From IMG/VR virus record IMGVR_UViG_3300025642_000028, positions 1-24,283 of that record: 24,283 nucleotides of DNA, one strand, 5' to 3'. Positions 1 through 24,283 of this stretch are shown here, piece by piece (the first letter of the stretch is position 1; every line of letters begins with the position of its first letter). Position numbers and translations under genes: made by a program. The stretch comes from a virus. The notes beneath the pieces were generated by a model, which ran no database searches, was not told the origin of the DNA, and worked only from the letters and a program-made list of their open reading frames with translations.

Positions 1-2
1 AA

Positions 3-269
3 ACTGAAAAAGCAGGCAAGAGAATGCCAACAGATAGTGAGTTTACAGAATTATTAAAAACTAAAGAAGATATGCCTAATCTTGTTTTTTCAGGCTACCG
101 CGATACTAGTGGTGCTTTCGGCGGTTCGGCCGCACACACTCACTTTTGGTCGTATTCCATGGATGGGGCTACTTCTTGGCTACGCTACCTGCTCTCTAGT
201 AGTTCCACTGTCACCTGCCGTTTGCATGACCAGGCGCACGGCTTTTCGGTTCGTTGTCTTAAAAAATAA
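3..269 (+). CDS. FISUMP-domain protein, C-terminal fragment (5' end outside window)
   Basis: The frame is open from the left edge and ends in TAA at 267-269, so this is the last 88 residues of a longer protein. The residues 'AGKRMPTDSEF', 'SGYRDTSGAF', 'HFWSYS', 'WLRYL' and the ending 'GFSVRCLKK' match the end of the FISUMP domain, a C-type-lectin-like fold in secreted and surface proteins of Bacteroidetes, Fibrobacter and Patescibacteria. ATG 24 lies inside the conserved domain, so it is unlikely to be the true start. From about base 91 to 260 the coding sequence becomes GC-rich and adenine-poor, unlike all neighbours, and most codons there end in C or T. That is the signature of a diversity-generating retroelement target, so this is probably a hypervariable ligand- or receptor-binding protein. 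The domain call is firm; whether the protein is on the virion or the host surface is unknown. Confidence 0.8.
   Translation, partial: TEKAGKRMPTDSEFTELLKTKEDMPNLVFSGYRDTSGAFGGSAAHTHFWSYSMDGATSWLRYLLSSSSTVTCRLHDQAHGFSVRCLKK
91..260 (+). other. Candidate DGR variable repeat (VR)
   Basis: By hand count this 170-base stretch is about 55% G+C and has about 23 adenines (13-14%), while flanking DNA is strongly A/T-rich. It sits at the extreme 3' end of a C-type-lectin-like gene and ends in an A-free run (241-260), like the initiation-of-mutagenic-homing end of known VRs. Codons are mostly NNY, as expected if AAY codons in a template were mutated at both A positions. No template repeat or reverse transcriptase was seen in the window, so the rest of the cassette would lie upstream, outside it. 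Confidence 0.55.
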
Positions 270-283
270 AGAATAAATAGATA

Positions 284-292
284 TGATATAAT
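284..292 (+). promoter_or_regulatory. Extended -10 promoter (TGATATAAT)
   Basis: A perfect TGN-TATAAT extended -10 lies just after the FISUMP stop and 49 bases before the 74-aa gene at 341. No convincing -35 is visible, which is normal for extended -10 promoters. Predicted transcription starts near 299, so the leader would begin almost exactly at the inverted-repeat arm at 301. Confidence 0.55.
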
Positions 293-7178: not shown

Positions 7179-7787
7179 ATGGAAAACGAAACAAAAAAAG
7201 TTCCTGTAGAGGAACAGGCAAAATTGCCACAAGAGGAGGACGTTAGAGAAAATATCATCACAGAATTTGGCTTCGACGAAGATACAGACTCTGACCGAAT
7301 TGACAAGTTAGTAGAAAAGGAGATGGACAATTCTAAAAAGTTATCCGATGCTATTGGTCAAAAGATTAAGCACCGAGATAGAGTTAAGGAATTAGAAAAT
7401 AACGGTGTTAAACCTCCTGTTAAAGGAGAAGTTAAAATTGACGACGACTTTGACAAGAAACTAGATGCGAAACTTCAAGAAAAGTTAGAAATGAAATCTT
7501 TAGACGAATTAGATTATTCTGATGACTTAAAAGAAGAAATTGATAAACTTTCCAAGTTAAAAGGAGTTTCAATCAAACAGGTATTAAGAGACCCTTATAT
7601 TGTTTCAAGAGTTGAAGCATTTGAGAAGGAATCCGAAACCGAGGAAGCCAGCATTAGTAGAAGTAAAAAATCACGAGGCAAGAAAACATTCTCAATGGAT
7701 ACCACGCCAGATTGTGATATGAACACTGAAGAAGGAAGAAAAGAGTGGGCAGACTACAAAGCTGAAATGATAAAAGCAGGTAACTAA
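7179..7787 (+). CDS. Probable capsid scaffolding protein
   Basis: An acidic, Lys/Glu-rich, mainly helical 202-aa protein directly upstream of the coat gene, the classical position of a scaffolding protein that templates prohead assembly and then leaves. The C-terminal part has 'SRSKKSRGKKTFSMD' (basic, a plausible coat-binding patch) and 'TEEGRKEWADYKAEMIKAG'. The frame opens at ATG 7128, but that ATG is in the terminator stem, so I place the start at ATG 7179 ('MENETKKVPVEEQ'). Scaffolds diverge fast, so the call rests on position, charge and helicity rather than on a motif. Confidence 0.65.
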   Translation: MENETKKVPVEEQAKLPQEEDVRENIITEFGFDEDTDSDRIDKLVEKEMDNSKKLSDAIGQKIKHRDRVKELENNGVKPPVKGEVKIDDDFDKKLDAKLQEKLEMKSLDELDYSDDLKEEIDKLSKLKGVSIKQVLRDPYIVSRVEAFEKESETEEASISRSKKSRGKKTFSMDTTPDCDMNTEEGRKEWADYKAEMIKAGN

Positions 7788-16235: not shown

Positions 16236-19200
16236 ATGCTTAACTTAACAGCATTAAAAAAAAATAAACTTAATACATCAGCTTTAGGTGGTAGAAAACC
16301 TGTTGGCGACTTTATTAGTCAAGCTCCAGAGCAATCATTCTTTCAAAAACTAGCTTCCAAGATACCAAGTGCTTTAAGAGAGCCTTTTGTAGGAACAGGA
16401 CAAACTGTTGATTTAGCAGGTAGAACTAAGTTTGATACAGGACTTATGGGAATGTTTAGACCTTTAGGATTTGGAAAATCAAAAGAAGAAAAAGCATCAG
16501 ACAGAATTGATTTATTAAGCCCTTTAGTTGCACAAGGAACTATCACACAGGAACGAATGAATGAGATTATAAAAGATGTAGTTACTCCTAAAGGTATTCA
16601 AGCTATACCAAAAGGATTACCAATAGATAAATTAGAACTTACAAGACCTGAAAAGATAGCCCTAAGACCAGTTAGAATTGAAGAAACTTTAGACCAAATT
16701 TTTGGTGTTTTAGATATATTCTCTTTTGGAACATTAAAACCTATAAGCAAATCAGCCGCTAAACTTATTTCAAAAAGTAAAGTATCAAGTGAAATAATAT
16801 CTATTCTTAAAAAGGAAATACCAGAGATTTCAGACGAAGCATTACCTGTATTTGGTAGAGCTTTAATGGATATTGATGATGTAAATGATGTTCAGAGAGT
16901 TATGAATAGAGCAGAATTAGCATTAAAGAAAGCAAAACAAACTGCTGGTAAAGTAGATACAACAGCATTAAAACCTGTTGGGTTTGGGAAGAAAGATATA
17001 TTACCAAAAGATGTTTCTATTATAGAAGAATCAAAATTAACTGGTGCAAAAAGAATATCTCCTGAGAATATAAAACATCAACAAGTAACTCCAGAAGCTA
17101 GTATAAATACAATAAAGAATGATATAACTTCTACTATTAAAATTCTTGATAATGCACCTCAAATGTCTAGTGCTTCTAAAAGAGTAATAGATAGTTTCCA
17201 CAGCATTGAGAAAAAGATAAAAGAAAATAAAGCTTCTGATAGAGAAGTAGCTTGGTATAATAGAGCTAAGGACAATATGCAAATCGCGATTGCGAACGAC
17301 AATTTAAAAAAGATATTAGGTAGTGATAAATTGAAATATGGAAAAGATAATTTAGAACTTATAAAGAAACTAATGTTAGATGATTCTTATATAAATAATA
17401 AATATATTGATTTAGTTAAAAAGGATATAAGCAAAGGTTATAAATTTCCAGAAGAAGTATTAAATTATGACAAGTCTTTTAAAACAGCAATAAACAATAG
17501 GGAAAGATACGAAAAAGGTTTAAGAACTTCATTTGGTGCAGATGACCAGAGAATTGTATTTGAAGATATTGAAACAATAGGTGCTGGTATGAAACGACAA
17601 GACGGGAAAGAACTAACAGACCTACAAAAATCAGATATAAGAGAGGGTGTAATAGATTTCTCAGAAACACTTGGTTTAGATATGAGGAAATTAGCCAAAG
17701 ATGATAGGTGGGTTTATGTCCACTTAAACGAAAAAAATCCATTTCTAATGAAAGATGTAGCTGGACTTTACAGAAAAGATATAACTAATAAAAGTGTTAG
17801 TGTTTCTGTTGGTGGAAAAGAAGGTTATTATGTAATAGTTAATGGAGAAAAGGTTAAAAAATTTACAAATACTACAATGGCTCACGAATTAGGACACGCT
17901 ATTGATTTTAAAATTGGGGAAAAATTCTTATCTGGCGATGAGTTTTTAACTTTGAGAAGAAATTATAACAAGGTTGAGAATAGTTATCGTGGGGAGAAAT
18001 ATTGGAGTAGTAAAAAAGAAGTAACAGCAAGAATGATAGAGGAATATATTGCAGTAACAAAAGGAAATAAAAACTTCTTTGATAAACAAGGATATTGGAA
18101 AAAAGATATTTTTGAAAAGGATATAAAGCCTGTAGTTGAATCAAATATAAAAGAAAAGTTTTCAGAATATAAATTACAACCCAAACCAACCACAACCCTA
18201 CAACAAGAAGCAAAGAAGTTTAAGAGTGTTGATGAGTTTATAGAGGCACAACCTAAGGTTTATCACGGAAGTTTAGAAGGTCGTGTAACTAAGTTAGAAG
18301 ATAAACCATTTTTTGTATCACCAGATAAAAATATGGCTAGAAGTTATGGAAAAGAAATTAGTAACTTTTATTTAAAAGATGGTAAGAAAGCTGATTTACA
18401 AGATGTGGAACTTCTAAAAAAAGTTGTTGGAATTGAAAATTATAACAAAGGAGAAAGTATATTTAAAAAATTAAATATTCAGACACAAGAAAAAGTATTA
18501 AAGAATAATTTAAGTGGATTAAAAAGAGATTTTCTATCAAAGAGTGATGAAAGTTTATTGAGTGATTATTTGTTTGTTGAAAAACCAACTAATACAGCAG
18601 TGGTTTTCAGACAAAAACAAATTCAAGATAAGTTAAAAAAGCTTGGTTTTGATTATTATGAAAATCGCACAGGTTATGGAGATACAGATTTCGGTGCTTC
18701 TTATATGGGAAGTCAAAAACCAGAAATAATTGTCTTAAATAAAGATATATTAAAAACAAAATCCCAACTAAAAGATATATACAATAAAGCGAAAGGAGTT
18801 AAAGAAGTCCCCAGTAAGAAGCCACAAGTAAAAGAAACAAAACAAATAGGCAGTAAGCCAAAAAAGGATGTTTCTGTTGAAAAGATAAAAGAAAAGTTTT
18901 CAGAATATAAATTACAACCCAAACCAACCACAACCCTACAACAAGAAGCAAAGAAGTTTAAGAGTGCTGATGAGTTTATAGAGGCACAACCTAAGTTATT
19001 TCATGGGACATCTGCTGAATTTGATACTTTAAAAAGCACACAACAGCTTCGTAATAAAACAGGTGATTTTCAACCATCAAATATTGGTGGTAATAGTCCT
19101 TTTATTCATATTACAGAAGATATAAATCTTGCAAATAGTTACTCTAAAGCACGTGTATTAAATATGGGAGGAAAAGCAAACACTATGGAAGTCTATATAG

Positions 19201-21275
19201 ATGGAAAGATATTAGATAAAACTAGAAATTTGTCAACAAATTTTGGAACAATGGAACGTGGAGGTAAAGAAATATTGGAAGAAATGAAAGAGGGAGGATT
19301 TGTTGGTGTTAAATTTAGAGATAAAGGTAATTATGGTCAAGATGTAAATACATTGGCTGTATTACCAGATGCAGTAAAAACAAAATCCCAACTAAAAGAC
19401 ATATACAATAAAGCACGGGGGGTTACAGAAGTCCCCAGTAAGAAGCCACAAGTAAAAGAAACAAAACCAGTAGGCAGTAAGCCCAAAAAGGATGTTTCTG
19501 CTGAAATTCCAAAAGATAGTCCATCATTAGTTAAAAAGGATACAGTAAAAAAAGAATTAAGTAAAGTAAAAGTTGAAACTGCTAAGATAGAAAAACTACC
19601 TCCTGCAGATACAACACAGACAATTCCAAATAATTGGAGGGGTGAATTTGTGTTACCTAAAGAAACTAAATTACAATCTGTTAGGAGAGTAGCAGAAGAT
19701 TTTAATATAAGACTAAAAGTATTAAATGATAAAATTGAAGAAGTTGCTGGTTCTAAAATAGAAGAACATCTTAATTTGTGGGTGCAAAAAGATATGCTCC
19801 CAAGAAAGCAATCTGATTTACTTCGTAGAGTAAGGGATAAAAAACAAGATTTTGTTAAAAGACTAACTGAGAATGATGTAGATATAGAAGAATTTGATAA
19901 ATATTTACACGCTAACCACGCTATTGAAAGAAACAAACAAATGAATTTGTTACGAACAGAAAAAGGTAAAGAAGCCATTGATGGACTTTCTGGAATGACA
20001 GACAAAGAAGCAAAATCAATTCTTGCTAAAGATAATAAACAATATGAAAGTTTTACAAAAGAAATTCAAAAAATGAATGATGAAACTTTGAAATTTCAAT
20101 TAGACCAAGGATTACTAAAACCAAAAGAATACGAAACTATAAAAGGAATGTATAAAGATTATGTGCCTTTGTTTAGAGATGTAGAAAATGACTTTATAGG
20201 AATAGGACAAGGTATTGATATTAAAGGAAAAGAAATAAAACGAGCTAAAGGAAGTGTTGAAAGGAGAGTTGTTTCTCCTGTTGGTAATGTTTTCTTTCAA
20301 GCAGAAAAAGCACAGGTCAGAGCATTAAAGAACGAAGTAGGAAAAACTATTATTGATTTAACAAAAACACACCCTGAAACAAAAGATATTTTCAAGATAG
20401 AAAAACAACAATATTCTCCAAGATATAACAGTGATGGTGAGTTATTGTATTTAGACCCCAAAACAAAATTAGGAGATAATGTTATTGGAACTAAAATTGA
20501 AGGAACTCAACACTTTATAACAATTAAAGACCCAAAATTAGCCCAAGCATTAAAAAATCTTAACATAGCAAGAATACCCAAAGGAATGCAATTTTTAAGG
20601 TCAGCACTGGGGATATGGGGTAGTTTCAAAACAAGGTGGCGACCAGAGTTTTTATTGACTAACTTTCAAAGGGACTTGGGGGAAGCATTACTTAACTTAG
20701 GAGTTGAAAAATCGTGGTTAAAAACAAAAGGTAAAGGACTACGAACATCTATTGTTAAAGACTTGTTCCCTTCACAGAAAGCAGTTTGGAAGTATTTAAG
20801 AGGTAGTGAGAATAAACAAGTTGATGAATTCTTTACTTTAGGAGGAGATGCAGGACACTTTTGGTTAGATGACATAAACACAGCAGAGAAATCTTTAATA
20901 CACCTTCAAAAAGAAATTCAAAACGTAGGAATTGAGAAGTTAAAAAACCCTATAAGAAAACTGGGGCAGTTAACCGATGATGTTAACTCAATGGTTGAAT
21001 TAGGAGTAAGATATTCTACTTATAAAAATTTAGTCGTAAGAGGTTTCAGTAAGGAGAAAGCAATCCAAAGTTCCGCTGATTTAACAGTAAACTTCTCAAG
21101 ACAAGGAGAATTCTCTCCATTCTTGAAATCATTTTATGGATTTATAAACCCAACTATTCAAGGTGGCTCAAAAGTTATTCGTTCTCTTTCAAGCAAAGAG
21201 GGTGGTAAAAGTGTTTTAAAAGGAGTTGTATTTTTGACAGCATTAGGTTTTATGACAAGAATGATGTCAATATGA
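16236..21275 (+). CDS. Giant polyvalent protein: zincin peptidase, two ART-like domains, LPD38-like part
   Basis: A 1679-aa protein. Residues ~430-620 hold a zincin metallopeptidase: HELGH (550-554) with a likely third ligand Glu595 in 'SSKKEVTARMIEEY'. Two ADP-ribosyltransferase-like domains follow, starting 'KVYHGS' (674) and 'KLFHGT' (920), each with an F[FI].[ST].D.N.A.SY segment. They are joined by near-identical linkers (see repeats). From about 1150 to the end is an LPD38-like region ('ANHAIERN', 'RPEFLLTNFQRDLGEALLNL'). This architecture matches phage polyvalent proteins, which are packaged and injected to modify the host. The LPD38-like domain is cut off at the stop and continues in the overlapping gene at 21272. 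The start at 16236 follows the preceding stop through a TAATATG junction without SD. Confidence 0.85.
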   Translation: MLNLTALKKNKLNTSALGGRKPVGDFISQAPEQSFFQKLASKIPSALREPFVGTGQTVDLAGRTKFDTGLMGMFRPLGFGKSKEEKASDRIDLLSPLVAQGTITQERMNEIIKDVVTPKGIQAIPKGLPIDKLELTRPEKIALRPVRIEETLDQIFGVLDIFSFGTLKPISKSAAKLISKSKVSSEIISILKKEIPEISDEALPVFGRALMDIDDVNDVQRVMNRAELALKKAKQTAGKVDTTALKPVGFGKKDILPKDVSIIEESKLTGAKRISPENIKHQQVTPEASINTIKNDITSTIKILDNAPQMSSASKRVIDSFHSIEKKIKENKASDREVAWYNRAKDNMQIAIANDNLKKILGSDKLKYGKDNLELIKKLMLDDSYINNKYIDLVKKDISKGYKFPEEVLNYDKSFKTAINNRERYEKGLRTSFGADDQRIVFEDIETIGAGMKRQDGKELTDLQKSDIREGVIDFSETLGLDMRKLAKDDRWVYVHLNEKNPFLMKDVAGLYRKDITNKSVSVSVGGKEGYYVIVNGEKVKKFTNTTMAHELGHAIDFKIGEKFLSGDEFLTLRRNYNKVENSYRGEKYWSSKKEVTARMIEEYIAVTKGNKNFFDKQGYWKKDIFEKDIKPVVESNIKEKFSEYKLQPKPTTTLQQEAKKFKSVDEFIEAQPKVYHGSLEGRVTKLEDKPFFVSPDKNMARSYGKEISNFYLKDGKKADLQDVELLKKVVGIENYNKGESIFKKLNIQTQEKVLKNNLSGLKRDFLSKSDESLLSDYLFVEKPTNTAVVFRQKQIQDKLKKLGFDYYENRTGYGDTDFGASYMGSQKPEIIVLNKDILKTKSQLKDIYNKAKGVKEVPSKKPQVKETKQIGSKPKKDVSVEKIKEKFSEYKLQPKPTTTLQQEAKKFKSADEFIEAQPKLFHGTSAEFDTLKSTQQLRNKTGDFQPSNIGGNSPFIHITEDINLANSYSKARVLNMGGKANTMEVYIDGKILDKTRNLSTNFGTMERGGKEILEEMKEGGFVGVKFRDKGNYGQDVNTLAVLPDAVKTKSQLKDIYNKARGVTEVPSKKPQVKETKPVGSKPKKDVSAEIPKDSPSLVKKDTVKKELSKVKVETAKIEKLPPADTTQTIPNNWRGEFVLPKETKLQSVRRVAEDFNIRLKVLNDKIEEVAGSKIEEHLNLWVQKDMLPRKQSDLLRRVRDKKQDFVKRLTENDVDIEEFDKYLHANHAIERNKQMNLLRTEKGKEAIDGLSGMTDKEAKSILAKDNKQYESFTKEIQKMNDETLKFQLDQGLLKPKEYETIKGMYKDYVPLFRDVENDFIGIGQGIDIKGKEIKRAKGSVERRVVSPVGNVFFQAEKAQVRALKNEVGKTIIDLTKTHPETKDIFKIEKQQYSPRYNSDGELLYLDPKTKLGDNVIGTKIEGTQHFITIKDPKLAQALKNLNIARIPKGMQFLRSALGIWGSFKTRWRPEFLLTNFQRDLGEALLNLGVEKSWLKTKGKGLRTSIVKDLFPSQKAVWKYLRGSENKQVDEFFTLGGDAGHFWLDDINTAEKSLIHLQKEIQNVGIEKLKNPIRKLGQLTDDVNSMVELGVRYSTYKNLVVRGFSKEKAIQSSADLTVNFSRQGEFSPFLKSFYGFINPTIQGGSKVIRSLSSKEGGKSVLKGVVFLTALGFMTRMMSI
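18147..18257 (+). repeat. ART module linker repeat A, copy 1
   Basis: A 111-base stretch encoding 'KEKFSEYKLQPKPTTTLQQ' and on to 'DEFIEAQPK', directly before ART-like domain 1. It is repeated at 18885-18995 with one T/C difference (codon GTT vs GCT). Confidence 0.9.
18751..18881 (+). repeat. ART module linker repeat B, copy 1
   Basis: A 131-base stretch after ART-like domain 1, encoding 'LKTKSQLKDIYNKAKG' and 'EVPSKKPQVKETKQ'. It matches 19375-19505 after ART-like domain 2 with a modest number of differences. Confidence 0.85.
18885..18995 (+). repeat. ART module linker repeat A, copy 2
   Basis: Second copy of the 111-base linker, offset 738 bases from copy 1, directly before ART-like domain 2. 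Confidence 0.9.
19375..19505 (+). repeat. ART module linker repeat B, copy 2
   Basis: Second copy of the downstream linker, offset 624 bases from copy 1. The two cassettes differ in length because the ART-like domains between the linkers differ. Confidence 0.85.
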
Positions 21276-23205: not shown

Positions 23206-24283
23206 ATGAAAATAAAATCAATAATCATCGCTATATTACTTCTAACAGCCTCAACTTGTAATGCAGGCTTCTTTGACTGGCTAGGCTTTGGAGATAATGT
23301 AGGAGGTGGAATGGGAACGTTAGAAATGTTAAATCAGTGGAGGTCTACAACAGACGGAATAACTACAAATTCATCAGGGAAGACCATCTATACACCCCTC
23401 TCAGACGCTTATTTTGCCAATCTAACAGTAGGAGGCATAGCAACTACTACTACGCTATGTTTTGCAGATAATACTTGTCAAACAACAGCAGTGGGTGCAT
23501 TAACCCCGTGGACAGAAAACATAGACGGAGGTGGCTTTAATCTAACAAATGTCGGCTATATATCTGCAGACACAGGGACTTCTACAATAAGCAATTTGAA
23601 TGTTACAGGAGATTTAACCGTAGGTGCTAATATCTATGGTTCTTTTACTTTTGTAACCAGTGGAGATTTACAAGTAGATAATATAAAACTATCAGGCAAC
23701 ACAATAGAAGCTACAAACGACAGTGGATTAAATATTTTTGATAATGCAAGTAATGGAATAACTGTTAAAGACGGTGGCAACGTCGGCATCGGGACGACAA
23801 CCCCACTTTCAACCTTAGATGTATATGGTAATGGAATATTTAGTGGATTAACCAACAACTCTCGTTATCTAAACTTTGGAGATATAGTAGGAGAAACAGG
23901 CTATGGTCTTCGTAATAGATTAGGAGTGATAGAAACTAAAGACAACGGTGACACTAATTGGCAAGCAGTAGGAACAATTTGTCCTGCTACCATGGTAGAC
24001 ACTGATGGTAATGTTTACGATGTGGTAAAAATAGGAAACCAATGCTGGATGGCTGAGAACCTTAATGTTGGAACTAGAATAGATGGAGTCGATGAGATGG
24101 CAGACACAGGAACAATAGAAAAATACTGTTATGGTGACGACGAAGCCAATTGTACAACTTACGGAGGTCTCTACCAATGGGATGAAATGATGCAATACAC
24201 AGAAACTGAAGGAACCCAAGGAATTTGTTCCATTGGTTGGCATCTACCCACCGATGCAGAATGGTACATTCTAGAAAATTACC
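23206..24283 (+). CDS. Secreted FISUMP-domain protein, N-terminal part (3' end outside window)
   Basis: The frame is open from ATG 23206 to the right edge (359 residues). Residues 1-20 ('MKIKSIIIAILLLTASTCNA') are a signal peptide with a likely cut before Gly21; there is no good lipobox. A middle region of beta-repeats ('TGTSTISNLNVTGDLTVGAN', 'GNVGIGTTTPLSTLDVYG') is a fibre-like stalk common in Patescibacteria surface proteins. The FISUMP domain begins near residue 256 ('GTICPATMVD', 'IGNQCWMAENLNVG', 'YGGLYQWDEMMQY', 'GWHLPTDAEWY'). A signal peptide on a phage gene suggests display on or export from the host cell. Its missing C-terminus is where a DGR variable repeat would lie. It differs from the fragment at 3-269, so it is a paralogue. 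Confidence 0.8.
   Translation, partial: MKIKSIIIAILLLTASTCNAGFFDWLGFGDNVGGGMGTLEMLNQWRSTTDGITTNSSGKTIYTPLSDAYFANLTVGGIATTTTLCFADNTCQTTAVGALTPWTENIDGGGFNLTNVGYISADTGTSTISNLNVTGDLTVGANIYGSFTFVTSGDLQVDNIKLSGNTIEATNDSGLNIFDNASNGITVKDGGNVGIGTTTPLSTLDVYGNGIFSGLTNNSRYLNFGDIVGETGYGLRNRLGVIETKDNGDTNWQAVGTICPATMVDTDGNVYDVVKIGNQCWMAENLNVGTRIDGVDEMADTGTIEKYCYGDDEANCTTYGGLYQWDEMMQYTETEGTQGICSIGWHLPTDAEWYILENY

Follow-up and report, generated by a model that had tools for sequence, protein, structure and literature searches.

A putative diversity-generating retroelement target in a small FISUMP-type phage gene, possibly diversified in trans

The small FISUMP-type gene and its adenine-poor 3' end

The stretch of DNA analysed here (the window) is a 24,283-base IMG/VR virus record, classed as linear, whose left end cuts into a small gene (Table 1). 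Its reading frame ends ...GYRDTSGAFGGSAAHTHFWSYSMDGATSWLRYLLSSSSTVTCRLHDQAHGFSVRCLKK* and matches positions 126-187 of the FISUMP family PF09603 with an E-value of 2.6e-6 and a score of 28.3 bits; this is under the Pfam cut-off of 33.9 bits, the gathering score below which the small FISUMP proteins as a group fall (25-29 bits). The match is in line with the initial annotation, in which bases 91-260 were taken as the end of a FISUMP-type gene. Full-length homologues of the cut gene encode 165-233 amino acids. Close ones were found on two IMG/VR contigs, L001 and L002, a homologue of 59% identity is common to L016 and L034, and those of L066 and L067 are more remote. In L001 the gene follows early-type genes such as SSB, and in L016 and the window it precedes the terminase genes; it is outside the tail module. 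A PDB sequence search with the small protein returned only weak lectin matches (E about 0.1), and its AlphaFold model (pLDDT 51) was of too low a quality to be compared with known folds. With the window fragment as query, the small protein was absent from annotated phages; it was also absent from the plasmids searched.

Table 1. Features of the window
Feature	Position	Strand	Basis
Conserved upstream flank, identical to L001 7689-7779	1-91	+	First difference at base 92
Small FISUMP-type gene, 3' part (last 88 codons), cut by the left end of the contig	3-269	+	ORF list, Pfam, alignment with L001, L002, L016, L066 and L067
Putative DGR variable repeat (VR): adenine-poor, GC-rich, NNY codons	92-257	+	Composition and alignments
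3' terminus of the VR, invariant (SVRCL codons), expected place of an initiation-of-mutagenic-homing site	246-260	+	Alignment; position presumed
Short A-rich intergenic motif between small genes, holding junction base 267	261-285	+	Sister contigs L022/L023
Inverted repeat pairs	301-323/616-638; 749-771/936-958; 1347-1377/1429-1459		
Probable tail protein, N-terminal half of FISUMP domain	23206-24282	+	Pfam 66.7 bits, over the gathering score; DNA match to L020

The end of this gene had been described as about 55% GC with some 23 adenines in an otherwise A-rich genome, and the counts agree: bases 91-260 hold 23 A, 50 C, 44 G and 53 T (170 bases; GC 55.3%), which puts their A content at 13.5% against 39.5% for the window overall, where GC is 34%. 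No 170-base stretch of the window has a lower A count, and counts close to this minimum are confined to stretches that start at 54-111. The two longest runs free of A anywhere in the window both lie inside 91-260, one of 25 bases from 109 and one of 22 from 239; the latter is the terminal run that had been noted, although at a length of 20. Codons were likewise correctly described as mostly NNY, with a pyrimidine at the third base in 42 of the 55 codons of 93-257, against 12 of the 30 directly upstream and, in comparison genes of the window, 209 of 468 (terminase) and 247 of 588 (portal). When the A content of a FISUMP C-terminus is expressed relative to that of its own contig (the A ratio), values of 0.33-0.49 are obtained across the window, L001, L002, L020, L016 and L066, with 0.34 in the window itself; the ratio is 0.65-0.67 for L067 and L074. 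FISUMP composition alone was considered as a cause of the deficit and rejected, since L077 and L079, FISUMP phages that lack the adenine-poor signature, have a smaller deficit, with an A ratio of 0.74-0.86, and show no sign of the repeat that marks a diversity-generating retroelement (DGR) target.

The small FISUMP gene behaves like an exchangeable cassette, because in two sister contigs (L022 and L023), whose identity to the window is 98.8-99.5% starting at base 267, a different gene takes its place at the same junction. That the join at base 267 is an assembly chimera is possible in principle, but the FISUMP gene is found whole inside contigs L001, L002, L016/L034 and L066. The junction falls in a short A-rich motif of which further copies separate small genes in L001 and L002 as well as in the window. 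Near-identical copies of this 25-base motif, AAAAACTAAAGAATAAATAACTATG, lie at 261-285 and 689-713 in the window, at 7438 and 7949 in L001 and over 754-3154 in L002; it precedes several small genes and may act as both leader and recombination point of a gene-cassette array. Window bases 991-1351 are 98.9% identical to L002 3782-4142, although the terminases of the two are unrelated, and a small HNH-like gene is found at 1010-1255 (HNH 19.4 bits, just under the cut-off); the near-identical HNH segment in two phages is a further sign of cassette exchange. Short segments between the small genes are flanked by long inverted repeats (arms of 23-31 nt, 81-87% complementary), with similar motifs, CTTTGAAAGTTT...CCGAGCTTTTAAA, at about 3430-3760 in L002. 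They resemble structured RNAs or else small mobile elements; the inverted repeats had no Rfam match, nor had any other part of the window. Further along, at 16236-21275, a 1679-aa polyvalent protein is encoded, with weak LPD1 and ART-PolyVal (ADP-ribosyltransferase-like) matches, and within its gene a segment is duplicated in part (about 18183-18795 and 18921-19415).

Variation among copies of the repeat and a second type of target

The window and L001 are without a single difference over bases 1-91, whereas 42 of the 170 sites differ in 88-257; the first difference is at base 92 and the last within the repeat at 245, after which only 266 and 280 differ. Comparison of L001, L002 and L020 identified 32 variable sites among the 170 of the VR, of which 25 are at codon positions 1 or 2. 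An A is present in at least one copy at 26 of these 32 sites, against 12.6 +/- 2.7 under a null in which bases were redrawn from the VR composition (none of 20,000 draws reached 26), an indirect test made on these three copies only. Template codons of the form AAY would give variable codons of the form NNY. Inclusion of the window as a fourth copy gives 28 codons with variation at position 1 or 2, of which 23 have the NNY form in every copy; the contrast with the conserved VR codons (NNY in 17 of 27) is not significant by itself (P 0.14), because these are often NNY too. The window VR fits the same frame, but at 21 sites it has a base different from the one common to the other three, and 12 of the 21 are without A. 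It therefore needs another template allele, and we read it, tentatively, as reflecting a second one.

The terminases of the window, L001, L002 and L020 have no significant mutual similarity. In the case of L001 and L020, the only common DNA at E < 1e-10 is the 176-base VR (85% identity), and it lies in different genes; since the VR alone matches, and in two different genes, a common template acting on both would be the best account of it. The L020 gene encodes a full FISUMP domain (106.9 bits) within a protein of at least 1014 aa that contains repeated GIGTT motifs, which we take to be phage tail-fibre-like, and this large VR-carrying protein is probably a tail protein. The gene at the right end of the window is 94.7% identical to L020 635-1125 at the DNA level over 491 bases; its product is probably a tail protein of the same kind, and a tail role suits it better than it does the small FISUMP protein. 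The VR of L020 is at 1242-1417, and the window contig stops about 110 bases before the corresponding place. At both ends of the window (1-91 and 24283), the contig terminus lies some 90-110 bases upstream of where a VR starts or would be expected to start, a pattern that might come from breaks in the assembly at a hypervariable segment with branching paths.

The region 91-260 is well supported as a DGR target. Its variation is confined between conserved flanks (window versus L001), its variable sites correspond, by indirect evidence, to template adenines (the window's own VR fitting less well), and its variable codons are of the NNY type in 23 of 28 cases. The target half of the DGR reading given in the initial annotation is accordingly upheld by bounded, adenine-linked NNY variation with identical flanks, located at the C-terminus of a FISUMP, putatively lectin-like, domain, but the reverse transcriptase (RT) and template were not found. 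As for the proposed diversification of a surface or receptor-binding protein, the small protein is encoded outside the tail genes and is at most a candidate for a receptor role.

Searches for the reverse transcriptase, template and host

The RVT_1 profile, which recovered the BPP-1 RT as a control, had no match in the window and 56 other virus records (57 in total, mostly fragments). An adenine-tolerant template scan of the window and 82 loci (many overlapping) recovered the BPP-1 template as a control and otherwise returned other VRs only, with no repeat in the scanned DNA that matched the VR except at template adenines. The expectation that both would be present on the contig was therefore not confirmed in the window or the 56 other records, and the phage-borne element first envisaged is less well supported than an arrangement in which the phage carries the target alone and RT and template are encoded elsewhere. 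Neither component is present in the 37.6-kb record of L020, and in G031 (39.5 kb, the record of L034) the small FISUMP gene is present and RT and template were not found. Both ends of G031 lie within one gene, at 83-94% identity, so that it appears to go about once round its genome, unless that end gene is duplicated.

No host was found in GTDB genomes by either a DNA-pattern scan or an alignment scan. The pattern GGYTTYTCGGTTCGTTGT was tried in IMG/VR and rejected, as its matches were mostly unrelated, and stricter VR/TR patterns yielded only the three known VRs and chance matches. A GC-rich hairpin with a GRNA loop was sought 3' of the VR, and no stem of at least 5 bp was found in the window, L001, L002, L016 or L066; in L020 such a stem occurs only inside the VR, together with two weak ones. 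In these phages the evidence therefore covers the target half of a DGR, and a complete one is not shown.

Possible diversification in trans

We consider it probable (roughly 60%) that bases 92-257 are the VR of a DGR, located in a small phage FISUMP protein and reliant on an RT and template outside the phage. The A content of this stretch is depleted, its variation is sharply bounded, adenine-linked and of the NNY type, the VR occurs in different genes of unrelated phages, and the records searched contain no RT or template. The RT and template would be encoded outside these phages, most likely in a common host; the error-prone RT would miscopy adenines of the template RNA, and the mutated cDNA would then take the place of the VR in any phage gene with a matching segment, be it that of the small FISUMP protein or that of the tail protein. 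Retrohoming, trans action and the host as source are all three what we infer from these patterns, and trans action is argued from absence, as RT and template were found nowhere in records that are mostly fragmentary. Further points against this reading are the failure of both GTDB scans to yield a host, the departure of the window VR from the other three copies, the missing BPP-1-type hairpin and the small number of copies behind the adenine test. The broader proposal, that several unrelated phages sharing one host bear targets for its DGR and that this would act in trans on a tail protein as well as on a small lectin-like non-tail protein, is more tentative, and we would place it slightly short of even odds.

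An ordinary phage-encoded DGR, with its RT and template in unassembled parts of the genomes, is unlikely, though the strongest of the alternatives. All records are classed as linear and most are fragments, and the contigs of both the window and L020 stop within or close to the tail region, the usual location of phage DGRs; however, no RT was detected in 57 records, L020's 37.6 kb and the 39.5 kb of G031 with its ends in one gene included, and fragmentation would have to have removed the same part from four phages with dissimilar terminases. Less likely again is that the VRs are fossil or passenger copies, acquired by recombination from diversified FISUMP genes of a host or phage, and no longer targets of retrohoming. 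Such an origin would suit a gene that acts as an exchangeable cassette, and recombination among diversified genes also yields bounded, adenine-linked differences, but the identity of the window and L001 reaches the VR start, and L001 and L020 match in the VR with no flanks at E < 1e-10, which counts against recombination because this would often carry flanks along. An explanation that needs no DGR, namely normal divergence or positive selection acting on a GC-rich FISUMP domain, is very improbable: signature-free FISUMP C-termini are mildly A-poor as well (0.74-0.86 of their contig), but the ratio is 0.33-0.49 in the window group, the variable sites are adenine-linked and near-identical VR DNA is present in otherwise unrelated genes.

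A target served from outside the phage has partial counterparts among known DGR systems. As in Bordetella phage BPP-1 (brt, TR, mtd VR), the VR is adenine-poor and closes a phage gene whose product is, here putatively, of lectin-like fold, variation is linked to template A and the targets include a phage tail protein, here a probable one. Unlike in BPP-1, where RT and TR adjoin the target, neither was found in the present phages, a small non-tail protein is also a target, and the downstream hairpin reported for BPP-1 (PMC3240598) was not found. VRs without an adjacent RT, with several targets fitting one template, occur in Thiohalocapsa PB-PSB1 (PMC10907252) and Treponema denticola (PMC4891356); in those cases a single bacterial genome holds both RT and target, whereas here the targets are in several phages and the RT was not located. 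Target-only DGR fragments of nanoarchaea (PMC4372165) similarly comprise a target gene and VR without RT, and were interpreted by their authors as fossils or as remotely diversified, but these are cellular genomes in which complete DGRs also occur, and none was found in the present phages. DGR clade 2 of aquatic Patescibacteria resembles the present case in its aquatic setting and in targets typically without recognisable membrane or other conserved domains; for these phages it is a lead only. The same survey, by Roux et al., states that VRs away from the RT are undetectable by it (PMC8144416).

Trans action has been published for targets within one genome (PMC10907252) and, in E. coli, for engineered plasmids (PMC12875486). 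A search of open-access papers, with few subscription papers covered, returned none that describes the diversification of phage targets by a host DGR. Phage DGRs are normally detected through their RT, and RT-less phage targets are for that reason invisible to surveys. If phages borrow an outside mutator, this would be a route for the evolution of host range and of phage-host conflict that is undescribed in the literature found, and a single cellular DGR could then serve to diversify a whole pool of mobile targets.
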